Positions 17,101 to 50,547 of a stretch of DNA of 64,000 nt are shown one piece after another. The notes under the pieces were generated by a model. That model had not been told where the DNA came from, made no database searches, and was given only the letters and a program-made list of their open reading frames with translations. Source of the DNA: Chionis minor (taxonomy: Eukaryota > Chordata > Aves > Charadriiformes > Chionididae); assembly GCA_013398295.1 (NCBI GenBank), contig VZSF01007028.1:81118-145117 (forward strand), written 5' to 3'. Both the position numbers and the translations under genes were made by a program. How positions within the stretch are numbered: position 1 is the first letter of the stretch; each line of letters starts with the position of its first letter.

Positions 17101-20100
17101 GCAGGTACCGTTGTTGAACAGCCCTGCGCTTCCCAAGTCTGGCTGCTCTGACCGGACACAGGGCTTGCGGATGCTTTGCAGGGATTGTACAAAATCCTGC
17201 GTGATCTGACAGTAAAAAGGCCTGGGATTAGCACAGCAGGGATTTGCACAGAGCAGCGCTGCCAGGGAGAATGGCCTTCTGCTGGGCTCCCTGCTTTGGT
17301 GTTGCTGGGGGCCAGTCACAGCCTACCAGCCAGTGGCGAGCTGAAGCGATGCCCCCTCTGAAATCCCAGTTCAGGGGTCAATTGCCCAAGCTACCGGCTC
17401 CCTTTCCTCACTGTTTTAGACCCTTAAAAGCACAGACTAGCAACACTACTGACACAATCCTCGGGTGGCCTTCGCAGCCGGGGTTGCTGAAAGGGATCAA
17501 ACACCTCCACATCCCATCCCCAGGGAGGTGATCCAGCTGCAGCCTGCCCCTGCTAGCCCAGACCTTGAGGATCATCACACAGAGTCACTCGTGCCACTGC
17601 AGAAGAGGGAACTGTCCTGTGTTGGCCACCTTCCCTCCTCTTTGTGTTCCTCCCTGTCTGTCTCCTACTGTGGGATGGTGAGACGGAGGGAACAGAGGCA
17701 CTAACATCATACAGCTCTGCATGCAAAGGGGAAGAGTCAGCAATCTCCCATGTAGCAGATAAAGATTTGGCTATATTCCACATCCCTTTACACCTCCTGG
17801 TAGTGCTTTAACCCCGGGGGTAGGCAGAAGTGACAATTTTAGAAACAAACCCCTCACATATCTTTTTATTCCTCTGTCTCCCTACACATTTGCATGCCTT
17901 TGCATCCTCTCCCTGTGCTGAGAGGAAAAATGAGTAGAACAGCTAATTCTTGTAGGACTAACACCAGAGCTGGAGCTTGTGGGCGATCTCTACAGGCTGA
18001 CAAAAACCTTCTGCCAGTGGGAAGGGGATCCCCTCCAGCAGTTAGGTCCCAGCATGTCTCTGCTGGAAGAGAACATACGACCCACCAGGACAGCTGTGAC
18101 CCTTACCCAGCAGTGCTGAGCCAACCCAAAGGGGTGCTGTGGCTCCAGCATGCTTCTGAGGCTGTCTCTGGTGGTGCAGGTGGACACGGCTGTGGCTGAA
18201 GAGACAAGAAGTGCTGTGCAGGCCGAGGAAATGAAGGCCAAAGTGAAAGCTCAGACAGCCCAAGCTATTGCAGATGACGCTCAGAAGGACTTGGCTGAAG
18301 CACTCCCAGCCCTGGACGCTGCTCTTGCCAGCCTGAGGAACCTCAACAAAAGTGATGTTACAGAGGTAACTGGGTTGAGGGGGAGTGTGACAGAGCTGGG
18401 TCTGGTCCTAGAGAGCCTCTCACTTTGCAGCAATTCCCCCTCTATAGGCTTGCAGCATCCCCAGCCTTTTCCAGCATCTCCATCCATTCCCCTGGGCTCA
18501 CAGTCTGGGCAGCTGCCCATGCAGCTTCTCAGCTTCACTCCTTCAAAAGCAAAGAGTTTGGAAGAGCAGAAAGGCAGAGCGCCTGGTTCCTCGGTGTTCC
18601 TGCATGTTCTTTCCCCACTTGTGCCAGAGAGGGCGTTGAGGAGGGCTCGCCCCATGGTGCCTGTCCTTGGGGGTAGGTGGCAGGCAGGACCACAACGCAG
18701 CCCTGTTGTGACTGCACGGCACGGGGACAGAGCTGGCAGCGCAGTCTGAGCCAGCAGCAATGCTGAAAGGAGACCCATCACAGGCAGGGAAGAGGAGTAG
18801 ACAGCAGCTGCTGGGCTGACTTCAAGGAATACTGGTTTGAAATAGAATAGTCAGAGAAAGGAGGGTGGTTGTGAGCCTGGCAAGTGTCACAGCCCGTAGC
18901 CGAGAGCGCAGACTCAGCAAGTACAAGACTTCACCGCACAGGGTGTAACAGCTGTGGAGCCGGCGTGAAAAGTCTCCTGCTTATACAGGGCTTCCAGTGC
19001 CAACTCACAAGATGCATCAATTTCATACGTATCATCTAACCCACCCACCAGCTTCAGGAAAATCTTCATTTAACAAATAAGCTCCCTGCTGCTTTTAAGC
19101 CCAGCTGCTGGGCCATCACCCAAGTAGCCTGTCACTGAAGCCAGGACTACTAAAGTTCTCTCCCAGCCCAGGATTAATGACCCAGCCCAATCTAAAAAGA
19201 GGACACCACTTCTATGGCAGGGAGAGGGCATCCCTTTGACCTATTCCTTTGCGCAGGGCAGCTCCATCAGTGGTCCCTTGGAGGATGCTGACACCTGCTT
19301 CTCCAGCTCTTCCACCACCTCTCTCAGACGATCCTCATTGCAGTAAAAATACACGTAAAGGTTGCGCTCTGTCTGCAGGAGAGGATTCTCCAGAGATCTA
19401 CGCTTGGCCTTCAAGTCACTCAGGAGGTCTGTCAGCATTTGGCGGAGGTTGTCCTGCATGGTAGTAAGTTGTTGCATCAGCTCAACGAGCTCCTGAGGGG
19501 AAGGGCCCAAACACATGTGAGCATGCAGAAAAAGGGGGATTTCCTTCCACTCATGGAAGAGCTCAACCCATCAGAAACAAACTCCCCACTTGACTCTGGC
19601 CTCTAAACATGTCCAGCCCAAGGAACAGAGGTAGCTTACTGGGCCACCTTGGCTAAGGCGCCCCAATCTCTGTACTCAACAGCACATGTGAAACAGTGAG
19701 AATCACCTTTGTCCCTCAGCCAGCCACTGCCTGACTGGATAGCTTTTGGGACAAGGCAAGGATCAGGCCAACCTCCTCTGTGGGCTGAGAGGCAGCGAGT
19801 TCTCCCCCCTCCCCACAGGCAGGGAAGACGCCCTGCGCCCCCCAGCAAGGCCTGGTGGAGCAGGAGTGCTTGCTTACCGGGGAGGAGAGCTGCAGCTGGT
19901 TGGAGCTGTTGTACAGCAGCTGGTAGAGCACCCTTGTGGAGGACTCCAGGGCAGGGAGCTGGGACACAGGAGCTGCCAGCTGTGCTTTCAGCACCCTGTG
20001 GTCCTGAACCAACTGGGAGCACTGGGCTGCTATGGCCTCATAACTGCGGAAGGGCTGGCGCGCCTCCTGATCTGGCCCCATCAGCATGTCCCAGAGCCTG

Positions 20101-23100
20101 TAGGCAGACAGGGTTGTGAGCAGTGTGCCGGCACTGAGGAGGAACAGGGGGACATAGTGTGCTGTGGGACTGGGATGCGAGCAGCTCTGGGGCCACAGTG
20201 AGAGGACAGGCACTCCTGAAGGCGTGGGAAGAGCACTGTGAAGTACCAGTCAGGGTCTCCTTGCTGGCAGACACCACACAAGCTACTCCAGACCTGTGCA
20301 GACTGAGAAGCCCCTGTCAGTGCAGGACACCCAACCAGAGAAAGCTCTTGCTCCAAGCAGCTTGTACTTCCTTCTGGCCCAGCTCTCCTTCTCCACGGCT
20401 GAAGCCTTGCCTCTACACCCTCCACCTTCATATCTTAGGCAAACCTCTGGTCTCAGTACTCGTTCCCTTCTCCAAGCCCGTACTTTGCTGCATCGACCCT
20501 CACCAGGCAGGAAGAAGCAGGTACTTCTGGAGAATTGCTCACTACCATGGAGTCAGGGTGGCTCTGTGCTGGCAGAAGAGCACTGCTAGACTGCCTGGTA
20601 GCTTGAGTCTGCTGTATGCCTCTCCCACTCCCATGCCACCTCCTCCACATCTAGTTTGTTCTCACATGCACGCACACAAGCCCTTACCGCACAGCAGACA
20701 GGTCTTTGGGGTCTATCCACATGCGTGGGCAACCCTTCTGGGAGGAGCCGGCGTCTTTGAAGTAGTCCTGCTGCTCCTGCAGCATGGTTTGGGCTTCCCT
20801 CATGGCAGTTTCCGTCTCCCTCATCCAAGCAGCCTTCTGATCCAGCTCCTTTCTCTCCAGTTTCAGACAGAGCTCCAGCAGATCCAGGCGGCTCTGCTGG
20901 TTTGCCAGCCACACAATTGCCACCTCCTGCCACTCAGCAACATGCTGCAGATGGGCAGCTTCCAGGCTGTACTGCCTCTGCAGGATGGGCAGGTGAGCCA
21001 GGCGGGCCTCTGCCTTCAGCAGGGGAGGCAGCTCCTGGGTCAGGATACGCGCGATGTCGCGACGCAGGGCGTGAAGCTGCTCCTGAAGCGTGGCAGCCTG
21101 GCACTGGAGCTCCGTCTCAACTGCCTGCTGGGCAGGGGGAAGACAAGACAAGCTGGTGTCAGGATGCACTGCTGGCACTGCCACCCCCTGCTGATATGTC
21201 AGCTGTCCTCCAGCATTCAACAGGAGGCATTGCCCGCAGCACAGGCAGACCCTACCGCAAAGGATGATGGAGGAAAGGGGGCACTGGCCCTACCTGGTTC
21301 TCCTCGAGAGCTTCCGGAGTCTTCTGGATCCACTCCAGCGCAGCACGGTTGCCTTCCACTTTTGCTGACATGACTATAACCTCCCTCTGGGCACAGATAC
21401 GCGCTTTCTCTATTTGGCACACCTCCTTCCAGTAGCTGTATCGGTTCCCCATCTTCATCGGTAGCTCATCTTCATCATTCCCAAGGCTTTTCAGCATCGT
21501 TGTTTGCTTGGTATCCATTCTCTCTGTGGCTTCCTGGTCGCCATCTCTCTCCTCCTCATCCCCCGTGCTCAACACCTCTCTCCCATTCCTCGTCATTCCG
21601 CTAGCAACTCTGCCCTCGAGCCTTGGACCGGTATTCCCTGACTTGCTGGTGCCACCTTGCATGGTGTCTTTGCGTACTCTTGATAAGGAGCTCCTCTTCT
21701 TCCTTCCGGTATTCCCCAGTTTGAGTCCATCTGTGTCCCAGTCTCCAGCCGTTCCTTTAGGGTGCTCTCTCCCTGGGCAGCTGGAGCCTGGATGCTCCCT
21801 GGTAGGACCTGCTGGATGAAATTCTCAAACATATTGGTGGCCTGTTGTTCTAGCTCTATGTAAGGGTCAAGATCCATCTCACACATCAGTGCTGGTGGCC
21901 GGCCTTTCCCCATGTCTTCATGCCACTCTGCCAGCTGCTTTGCAGCCTTGCTGATCTCGCTCAGGACAACACTCGTTCGCAAGATCACCGATTCCAGGTC
22001 CATCTGAGCCTTCCTCAAGTCCTGCTGCACTGCTTTCTCTTCTTCCTCCAAATAGCTCAGCTGCTGCTGCAGGTTGGCTGTTAAAACCTGCAGCTTGCTC
22101 TGCCACCAGAGCTGACGGTCACGATAGTCCTGAAGCTCCTGCTGCAGGGCCTCCAGAGAGGCAGCCTCGTCATCTGGTATTACGCTTGGTAGCTGTGGGA
22201 CCTGGCGGCACATCTGCAACGCCCGCTCGAGGGCATCGCCTTCCAGGATGGGCTTGCCTGCAGCCACCAGGGCATCGTAGGCCTCCACCTCAGCTGGGGT
22301 CAGGACATTGTCTTCACTCACCGTGCTGCAGAACCACTCGAGGAACTGCGCTGTCTGAGGGCAGTCAAAGAGCCAGTCAAAGTCCCTCTCGCAGAGCGTG
22401 TCTGCACGGGGGTAGAACAGCTTCAGCGTCACTACAAACTCTCCCCCTCTGTTGACTGTGTCCAGTGGGATGGCCTGGGATTGCCTCGGGCTGAACATGC
22501 CAAGGATGATCAGCACTAGAAGGGAAAAAGCGGGAGTCATCCTTAAGGGTCCTGACAACTACAGCCATTTCGAGGGTGCCACAGTAGCCCTCCTTGCTGC
22601 CTGCTTGAGGAGAGACTCGGCAGTCCCTCTACAAGTGCTACAGACCAGCTCATGGGCTGCAGCATTGCTACGGTGGGGTAGAAGAAAAACGAGGGCCCAC
22701 AGAGCAAGGGAGAAAGCTGCCCGTGCCCCATTTCCATATGGCCTCCTCTCCAGGGCCATACAGATCTAAATCCTATGTCAAGACATCTGCAGCTGGTAAG
22801 ATACACCTATCAGAGCATCAGGGCAGGCTTTTTCAGCCTGCCAATAGTTTGCTCCATGCGCTTTCTGATTCCCTTCAGATACATCTGTCCTTCTTGCCTG
22901 CGCCTTGCATCCTCTAAGTGACCTACCTCTGGTCCCAGTCTCCCCTGGGCCAGCTGAGGGATGACCACCCCCTGTCTCCATTTTGGTTTTGAAGGTACGA
23001 GCAATGCAGCGGCCTCCCCTCGGTGTGAAGATGGTGATTGAAGCCGTCTGCATTATGAAAGGAATCAAGCCCAAAAGGGTGGCAGGAGAAAAGCTAGGCT

Positions 23101-26100
23101 CCAAGGTGGATGACTACTGGGAGCCAGGCAGGGGCCTTCTCCAAGACCCAGGGAAGTTCCTGGACAGCCTGTTTAAGTACGATAAGGTGAGTGGTGGCAG
23201 AGGGAGGCCACGATCAGGGATCAGGTATTGCCTCACGGAGATCCTGCTCACAGCAGTGAAGCATAAAGTTTTTGTGGGCAATACCCTTCAGCAGCCCAGA
23301 GAATGAGGATGTATTTGGCCTGTAAGCCCTCCGGTGGGCAGGCAGCGCTTCATTGCCTTGGGCAATGGGACCCAGACACACAGGTTTTCCCCTTCTGTCC
23401 ATCTACGCTTTCCATGTGGAGGAGATAGATGGAGGTGGTATGGGAAGGGATTTACCCAGTCCCACAGCCGTGCCTCCCAGGTCTCAACATGCAGCAATTT
23501 GACTCCTCTTGCTTCAGTACGATGCCTTGACCACCCTACCAGGTCCCGGTGCAGGCTGCAGCCACTGGGGGAAGCCCTTTGAGACCCTTCCTCAGTCAGA
23601 TCTCTTGCACCCTCGTCACTGATCTCCTTTCTCTCCCACCGTTCCTTGCAGGACAACATTGCAGACAACGTGATCAGGGCCATCCAGCCCTACATCGACA
23701 GTGAGGAGTTTCAGCCAGCTGCCATTGCCAAGGTCTCCAAAGCTTGCACCTCCATCTGCCAGTGGGTGCGTGCCATGCACAAGTACCACTTTGTGGCCAA
23801 GGTCGTGGAGCCCAAGCGGGTAAGTGGCAGCGTGGCCCAGCTGCTCTAGGTGTTAGGGAACACAGCATTAGCAGCCCCCTTCTGCGGGAGATGCTGAGAG
23901 TCACCACGTTCTGCAGGTCAGGATGTAATGTTCAGACCAAGCCTTAGCAGACCCAAAGCCCCAAAACCTGTTAATATAATAAAGTAGAAGAAATCAGCCG
24001 AGAATACACTGGGACAGAAGCGATACCTTGTTTAGTGCTGAGTTCCTGGCTCAGCAGAAACTGTACTTACGGAAGCATTCCCACATCTCACTAGTGTTTC
24101 AGCCTTAACCCTCTCCAAGCCTAGCTTTTTCTTTATTATTTTGGGGCAAGCAGAGGAACCTTTCTTCCTCTTCACCACTGGGCCACATCCTGAGCTTGTG
24201 TAAGCTGTCACAGGCTCTTGGCTTTTTGGAGCTATGCAGAAATGCCCTTCTCATGCCTACCTTTATTTCTGGGCTCGCAGAACATCCCCCTGGAGTGAGG
24301 CAGGTCAACCATTGTCATACAGGGAAGGAACTCAGTGTCACCTAGTGCTTTTATGGAAAACAGACTCTTGCTCGAAGGCCTCTGGCTTTTTTGGGGAAGA
24401 ACCTGTCCACCTGCCAAACATACCCACCGTTTCCTTGTGCATCTCCCCAGCGAGCCTGGCAGGAGGCAGAAGACGACCTGCGTGCCACTCAACAGGTCCT
24501 TGAGGAAGCGAAGCAACGCCTCAGGGAGGTTGAAGGTGGCATTGCCATGCTGCAAGACAAGTACAAGGTCTGCATAGCCAAGAAGGAAGAGTTGGAGATG
24601 AAGTGTGAGCAGTGTGAGCAGAGACTGGGCCGTGCTGATACGGTAAGGGACAGAGCTGGGTTCTGCCTGCCTACATGAGACGGCCTGATTTCAGGTCAAG
24701 GAGCACAGCCATGGAAACCTCTGTGTGCCTGCGACTCACAACAGTCCTGGGTTGAAACTGCCTGGCCAGGTCGCAGCAGCACAAGAGGACTGGGAAAGCT
24801 AAGTTAGCCAGGCACTGGTGTGAAAAGCTGCTGTCCTCCTGGGCACAGCTTCTTCAGCCAGCAGTGAGTCTCCAGGATAGCCGAGAGCGAGCCCAGTAAT
24901 CCCAGGACTAAGTACTCAAAACTAGGGACAGAATTCAGGATATGGCAGAAGCCACCCTGCAACCTCTGGTCGTCAGAGTCACCTGCAGCATTACCCAGAG
25001 AGCAGCAAGTCCAGGACACGAGGTTAGAGCACACAGCAGCTCTCACGCGTGCAATTTATCCCGCAGCTCGTAAACAGCTTGGCTGATGAGAAGGTGCGCT
25101 GGCAGGACACTGTGGAGAACCTGGATTACAAGATCAACAACGTCACTGGGGACGTGCTGGTTGCAGCTGGCTTTGTGGCCTACCTGGGCCCTTTTACAGT
25201 AAGTACGATGCTCCCCGCGAGGGGCTCGGTTAGCTGCTCTGCTCCCCTGGTCTCTTGCTGTTGCTGGCCAGATCCGCTGGGAGAGAGGATCCCTCCTGGA
25301 TCTCTCCACATGTGCCAGAGGCTGCACAGGGTCCCATTTGAACGGGAACAGGAGGGTTTAGATGCTCACAGCGTACTAGATATAACTGGAAAAAAAATGC
25401 TATGACGGTGCTTCTCGTGGCAGGGACACTACCGCGTAGCACTGTGCAAAGAGTGGCTGAAGCAGCTGTCAGAGAACAACATTCCTCACACCAAGGAGCC
25501 AAACCTGATCAGCACCCTCGGAGACCCTGTGGAAATCCGCTCCTGGCAGGTAAGTTGCAAAAAAAAAAAAAAAAAACAAAAAAAACACAAACACAACAAC
25601 ACCCCAACATTTCAGGTTGAAGGTGCCTCAGGCCAAGGCTAAAACACTTAAAACACTCAGCTCACCACTCACTAGCATCACCTGTACCAAAGGACAGACC
25701 CCAAACCAAGCAGCTCAATAACAGCCAAGCACCTCCACACTGCGGAGCTGGAATTGCTGCCAGGGCTCCTTGTGCCATGAGTAGGAGAGGACCTGGCAGC
25801 ATCCAGGGCAACAGGAGCAGCTCTGAGGGCATCAGGCTTAACCCGTAAGGGCTCCCCTTTGCAAACCCCAGGCTTGCAGCAAAGCCCTCCCATCCTGCCC
25901 AACCCTAACTGTGCCAGCAGAGCTCTGTCCCATGGCTCCGCTGCTTCGGGCAGAGCTGCAGCTGTGGTCTCCGCTGCTGTTAGAGATATCCTCACCACCA
26001 TCCCCTGCCCACCACACTGGGACCACACAGGGGCCAGAGCAGCAAGGGTTTCTCTCTGGTCAGCTGTGTTGTGCTACCAGGTGTTCCCAACAGCTTTTTT

Positions 26101-37861: not shown

Positions 37862-50292
<12,431 letters not shown>

Positions 50293-50386
50293 CTTCCCGC
50301 GGGCCGGGCCCCGCCGCCATGTCCGGCCCCTACAGCCGCCGCCGCCACCGCCCCGCCCCGGCGCGTCATCGCCGCGCGACGCCGCG

Positions 50387-50410
50387 TGACGTCATCGCCG
50401 CGTGACGTCA
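50387..50410. promoter_or_regulatory. Twin CRE palindromes at the BAP1 5' end
   Basis: Two perfect TGACGTCA sites (50387-50394 and 50403-50410) are 16 bases apart, start to start, in a tandemly repeated GCGTGACGTCATCGCC unit, with a degenerate third copy just before (50371). They lie about 95-120 bases upstream of the BAP1 ATG in a CpG-rich area with CCGCCCC boxes, where a promoter is expected. CREB/ATF factors bind this palindrome; use in vivo is inference. Confidence 0.6.
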
Positions 50411-50547
50411 TCGCCGCGCCTGCGCCACTTCGGTGCCCGGGGCAGGGGGTGGCGGCGCCGCTACAAAGGTGTCGCGGTGGCGGCCTGGGAGGGTCCTGGG
50501 GCTCGTACGGGGCTCGCAGTCGGCAGCCTGGGCTGCCCACCCCGCGA

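Follow-up and report, generated by a model that had tools for sequence, protein, structure and literature searches.

The stretch of Chionis minor DNA analyzed here (64,000 nucleotides of contig VZSF01007028.1, referred to as the window herein) carries a HAUS3-like gene on its minus strand, antisense within an intron of DNAH1, a sperm-motor and cilia gene. Our analysis confirmed that this nested gene is real, and we are nearly certain that it is an old, conserved paralogue of HAUS3, the gene for augmin subunit 3. The original prediction, made from the letters of the window, had placed four minus-strand HAUS3-like exons antisense within DNAH1, and the exons, the splice sites, the homology and the flanking DNAH1 exons all agree with that placement.

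The coding span runs on the minus strand from 22498 to 19241 in four exons, for which both the ATG and the stop were verified. Exon 1 (21294..22498) starts with the ATG at 22498 and matches HAUS3. It is followed by exon 2 (20688..21127), which is flanked by GT...AG introns of phases 0 and 2 at the positions seen in ordinary HAUS3, by exon 3 (19878..20097; GT...AG, phases 2 and 0), and by exon 4 (19241..19492), which ends in a TAG stop and matches the C-terminus of HAUS3 (E 4.6e-10). All three introns are bounded by GT...AG and their phases are 0, 2, and 0. The entire coding region lies within a single intron on the plus strand (18366..22994), whose exon edges carry GT/AG. We identified the host as DNAH1 since the flanking plus-strand exons encode adjoining residues of the human protein (8i3j_A): residues 30-95 upstream of the intron (18180..18365, E 6.2e-25) and 95-158 downstream of it (22995..23186, E 1e-32). 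The nesting is an observation from the Chionis minor genome only. Upstream of the nested gene, an acceptor scan gave an acceptor-like TTCTAG ending at 22516, 18 bases before the ATG, and a non-coding first exon may therefore sit further up. The start of the protein, MF..R.S, is kept as far as turtles and squamates.

The relationship to HAUS3 was evident along the whole protein. The exon 1 frame (301 amino acids) matched human HAUS3 in the PDB with an E-value of 1.1e-30, and the Pfam family HAUS-augmin3 (PF14932) scored the window's frame at 168.5 bits (cut-off, 29.4). The same family gave 151.6-209.6 bits for other paralogue proteins (P0004, P0262, P0267, and P0269) and 176 bits for P0001. The PDB E-values of exons 1 and 4, together with the Pfam score, rule out a chance match. 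When aligned with ordinary HAUS3, the paralogue matched from end to end (probability 100%, 34% identity, 589 columns), with the N- and C-terminal HAUS3 blocks collinear. Agreement in blocks of 40 residues was best at both ends, where 0.50-0.55 of the consensus residues of ordinary HAUS3 were found, and fell mostly to 0.18-0.33 in the middle blocks. Between the positions of human HAUS3 residues 221 and 252 the paralogue carries an insert of ∼100 residues. An AlphaFold model of P0004, which is of low confidence overall, placed residues 251-369 under 50 in the predicted local distance difference test (pLDDT), and the insert is probably disordered as modeled. The nested gene is like ordinary HAUS3, the copy beside POLN, in its Pfam family, its three intron places and phases, and its whole-protein collinearity; it is unlike it in sharing only ∼34% identity, in having the insert and 14-16 more N-terminal residues, in sitting in DNAH1, and in evolving 1.42 times faster in birds.

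A profile search of the whole Chionis minor genome with PF14932 gave two places, one on contig C1053 (303 bits) and one on the window's contig, C2470 (169 bits). Of the 14 control genomes, one also gave a match in this search, with a score that did not reach the cut-off. The C1053 locus has exons at 168873-167950, 166836-166400, 164704-164476, and 163136-162903, and its product of 607 residues is 57% identical to human HAUS3 and a full match to the database protein P0121, named HAUS3 of Chionis minor. The window's protein contains all 602 residues of a different entry, P0001 ('HAUS3 protein, partial' of Chionis minor), with zero mismatches. Downstream of the C1053 gene and on its strand, three stretches of an A-family polymerase were found at 111555-85591, a single one of which exceeded the cut-off, and four further A-family stretches lie on contig C3207. 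By analogy with the known HAUS3-POLN neighborhood, we take the polymerase on C1053 to be POLN and that on C3207 to be POLQ. HAUS3 adjoins POLN and has a first exon in common with it, according to the available portion of PMC4591814.

The residues at which the introns fall and their phases (0, 2, 0) are identical between the nested and C1053 copies. The common intron places and the end-to-end alignment speak for duplication of the gene together with its introns, and three introns at ordinary HAUS3 positions and phases rule out a retrocopy. The predicted old, intron-containing gene, as opposed to a recent retrocopy, is thus upheld. It could be argued that the nested gene is ordinary HAUS3 that had moved into DNAH1, as public annotation does name it HAUS3. 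For Chionis minor this is refuted by the ordinary HAUS3 in the same genome, and among the matches listed in our protein searches 64 species are common to the lists of the two copies; we give this explanation virtually no credence. What would be expected of a HAUS3 orthologue is not seen in the nested copy: its locus is in DNAH1 and not beside POLN, a second locus exists, and it falls in a separate clade of the tree described below. The ordinary HAUS3 found elsewhere in the genome, upstream of a POLN-type polymerase, bears out the original assignment of the nested gene as a paralogue and not a relocated orthologue.

Searches of protein databases gave the spread of the two copies. Using the window's protein we obtained 339 proteins, and using the ordinary copy 542; the best 120 of each set were all birds, and sorting by best match assigned those of the first search to the paralogue and those of the second to ordinary HAUS3. 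Among the matches listed there were 114 species names for the paralogue and 112 for ordinary HAUS3, 64 of which were in both. For the nine tabulated species whose contigs in both lists are of chromosome scale, the longest contigs of the two copies differ, with paralogue contigs of 23-35 Mb in eight species and 102 Mb in one, and ordinary contigs of 48-132 Mb. A tailored search that excluded short models yielded 64 proteins from 49 birds, three crocodilians, four turtles, seven squamates, and one unlabeled source, a non-avian share of 14/64. Mammal, amphibian, and fish proteins made up 0/64 in this search, in which entries of <620 residues could not appear. All 36 proteins that were new in the tailored search were paralogues by best match, and its birds included ostrich, kiwi, swan, and galliforms. 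The conservation in birds that the original prediction had named as a check is seen in these protein searches, and it extends to crocodilians, turtles, and squamates.

The paralogue's public names are 'HAUS3', 'uncharacterized LOC...', and, once, 'BAP1 isoform X3'. A description of the gene as an 'undescribed' augmin subunit does not hold for the protein, which is already in public databases, and can apply at most to its function. We found no paper describing a HAUS3 paralogue in the literature searched on HAUS3/augmin duplicates, birds, reptiles, and DNAH1, which covered few subscription journals. In Chionis minor, 'HAUS3 protein, partial' is the name of both P0001 and P0121, although they come from different genes, and gene sets built from names may therefore mix both copies.

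We estimated the age of the duplication from a tree of 32 proteins: 21 paralogues, nine ordinary HAUS3 proteins of birds, and the human and Xenopus proteins, the ordinary copies of reptiles not being included. The 21 paralogues form a single clade (100/100), within which birds, crocodilians, turtles, and squamates appear as groups. This clade has a very long stem branch (1.44) and joins the nine ordinary bird copies (96/86), with human and Xenopus outside. Judging from these sequences, HAUS3 was duplicated no later than in the common ancestor of living sauropsids. A date after the mammal split is the one favored by the tree; older dates also fit the tree tests, as topologies uniting the ordinary bird copies with human (p 0.146) or with Xenopus (p 0.10) were not rejected.

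The original prediction also called the gene fast-changing, which is true in part: across 18 bird species the paralogue evolves 1.42 times faster than ordinary HAUS3, with the larger change in 153/153 species pairs, and its stem is very long. The changes are unevenly distributed along the protein. When the window's protein was compared with 151 other paralogue rows, it differed at 1/67, 8/129, 36/257, and 58/133 sites in classes of falling conservation, an uneven spread with a chi-square p of about 1e-15. Both the 49 changes common to Chionis and Pluvianellus (p 8e-6) and the 26 changes private to Chionis (p 5e-5) avoid conserved sites. At the level of the aligned proteins these patterns show constraint on the paralogue, by a measure other than the ratio of nonsynonymous to synonymous substitution rates (dN/dS).

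Exon 1 is not a single open frame in the assembly. It is open to 21596, where a TGA (21593-21595) interrupts it, and the frame of the relatives resumes at 21590. The break (21591..21595, minus strand) consists of five bases, TGA first, where the gull protein and other intact relatives have one codon; gull and vulture proteins (P0003 and P0004) run uninterrupted across the site. The public models of Chionis and Pluvianellus skip the linker at identical residues, jumping from FIQQVL to STGDEEER. A hidden intron across the linker is unlikely, as no acceptor with a pyrimidine tract was found there and the linker of other species is in frame. An assembly error, a segregating allele, and a recent loss all fit the break. 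The branch leading to Chionis and Pluvianellus socialis is long (0.13 versus 0.039 for Burhinus), which fits either weakened constraint or adaptation. Together, the frame break and the long branch would suit a recent pseudogene in Chionis, and perhaps in Pluvianellus, with a functional gene elsewhere, an explanation that would be compatible with the role proposed below for the family. We consider it possible but on balance doubtful: the four exons have no further stop or frameshift, every splice site is kept, both the shared and the private changes avoid conserved sites, and an assembly error would give the identical picture.

For the function of the paralogue, the most useful framework is the architecture of augmin. 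In the parts of PMC9512787 available to us, HAUS3 and HAUS5 are aligned along nearly their full length and double back to give an arm of four helices, and they meet HAUS1 and HAUS4 in a bulge and in the second arm; the stretch of HAUS3 from 198 to 364 (frog numbering) is modeled with the other half of augmin. The insert of the paralogue falls inside this stretch. An ancient HAUS3 duplicate, introns included and antisense in a DNAH1 intron, has been retained since the sauropsid ancestor or earlier, and we propose that it encodes an alternative augmin subunit 3 whose helix order is unchanged end to end. In particular cells the paralogue could then take over from ordinary HAUS3 in building a HAUS1/3/4/5-type half of augmin, and the ∼100-residue insert in the HAUS3-HAUS5 arm may alter docking to the HAUS2/6/7/8 half, or its control. 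That the paralogue would work as an alternative subunit 3 by this mechanism is, in our estimate, slightly better than an even bet. We lean toward it since the terminal blocks agree best with ordinary HAUS3, the conserved sites are spared, and HAUS3 pairs lengthwise with HAUS5 in the available account (PMC9512787).

Several observations weigh against a role in augmin. The window's own copy carries the frame break. The structure predicted by AlphaFold is of low quality (pLDDT 54, predicted template modeling score 0.21). The best Foldseek matches to it were 7sqk_C and 8at3_B, with E 2.3e-16 for the match to HAUS3, at a template modeling score of 0.13 that gives little information on shape. A genome-wide search of Chionis minor for HAUS5 gave no match, in a weak test whose controls were silent. 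Lastly, the long stem (1.44) and the weak agreement in the middle of the protein also fit a protein that left augmin. Such a protein would be a functional coiled coil that had taken up a different role, for instance, at centrioles or in sperm, and the host is a cilia gene. The germline role that the original prediction called conceivable is conjectural. The paralogue nonetheless retains both terminal blocks and its full helix order, and location in DNAH1 is by itself uninformative on function; we regard a task outside augmin as unlikely, though it deserves some weight.

The HAUS5 result also bears on a more specific proposal, in which the paralogue would substitute for HAUS5 as the partner of ordinary HAUS3, in birds without HAUS5 or more widely, so that sauropsids would have a second kind of augmin. 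In its favor, HAUS5 was unmatched in Chionis minor, the available text of PMC10992995 reports HAUS5 loss to various degrees among 363 bird genomes, and that of PMC10102177 terms HAUS3 and HAUS5 paralogues that form one coiled coil. The search itself is weak because its controls were silent, HAUS6 was matched only weakly, by two exons of a single locus (28-30 bits), and HAUS5 is poorly conserved, the human and Xenopus proteins being far apart (human-to-Xenopus score of 261 bits versus 557 for HAUS3). GC-rich bird genes are often hidden in assemblies. Searches of the Chionis minor genome with HAUS6 (a single weak locus) and HAUS5 gave no duplicates of these other augmin subunits. Furthermore, squamates have HAUS5, as given in the available portion of PMC10992995, as well as the paralogue, and replacement therefore cannot be the paralogue's first task. 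We consider this second kind of augmin, with the bird paralogue substituting for HAUS5 beside ordinary HAUS3, to be improbable.

Upstream of the nested gene and on the same strand lie the exons of BAP1 (46807 to 37865, minus strand), of which two of the three pieces tested match BAP1's peptidase family. Perhaps the first BAP1 exon is at 50292-50257 on the minus strand (12 residues, E 0.009). In steps of 500 bases, no CpG-rich stretch was found at the nested gene, and one was found at 50000-50499, near the BAP1 start. 'BAP1 isoform X3' is the database name of P0273, a squamate paralogue protein from Rhineura. Taken together with the upstream position of BAP1, this name suggests that transcripts may begin at BAP1, and it hints that the location near BAP1 may be as old as the lizard-bird split. 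The arrangement would be like that of HAUS3 and POLN in the available part of PMC4591814, with a HAUS3-type gene adjoining a same-strand gene and transcripts possibly in common; unlike HAUS3-POLN, the putative BAP1-paralogue link comes from one database name.

Selection scans in birds that list HAUS3, such as that in the accessible part of PMC9339318, may have taken one copy for the other or combined both. Vertebrate augmin is described with one HAUS3 among its eight subunits in the available portions of PMC9512787 and PMC10102177. If HAUS5 were replaced by the paralogue, this would explain how birds tolerate losing HAUS5 in the patchy manner that the available text of PMC10992995 reports. Should the paralogue be a second subunit 3 that has persisted from the ancestor of reptiles and birds, augmin would be buildable in more than one way across many vertebrates, and the gene would offer a natural handle on the reason for alternative forms of augmin.

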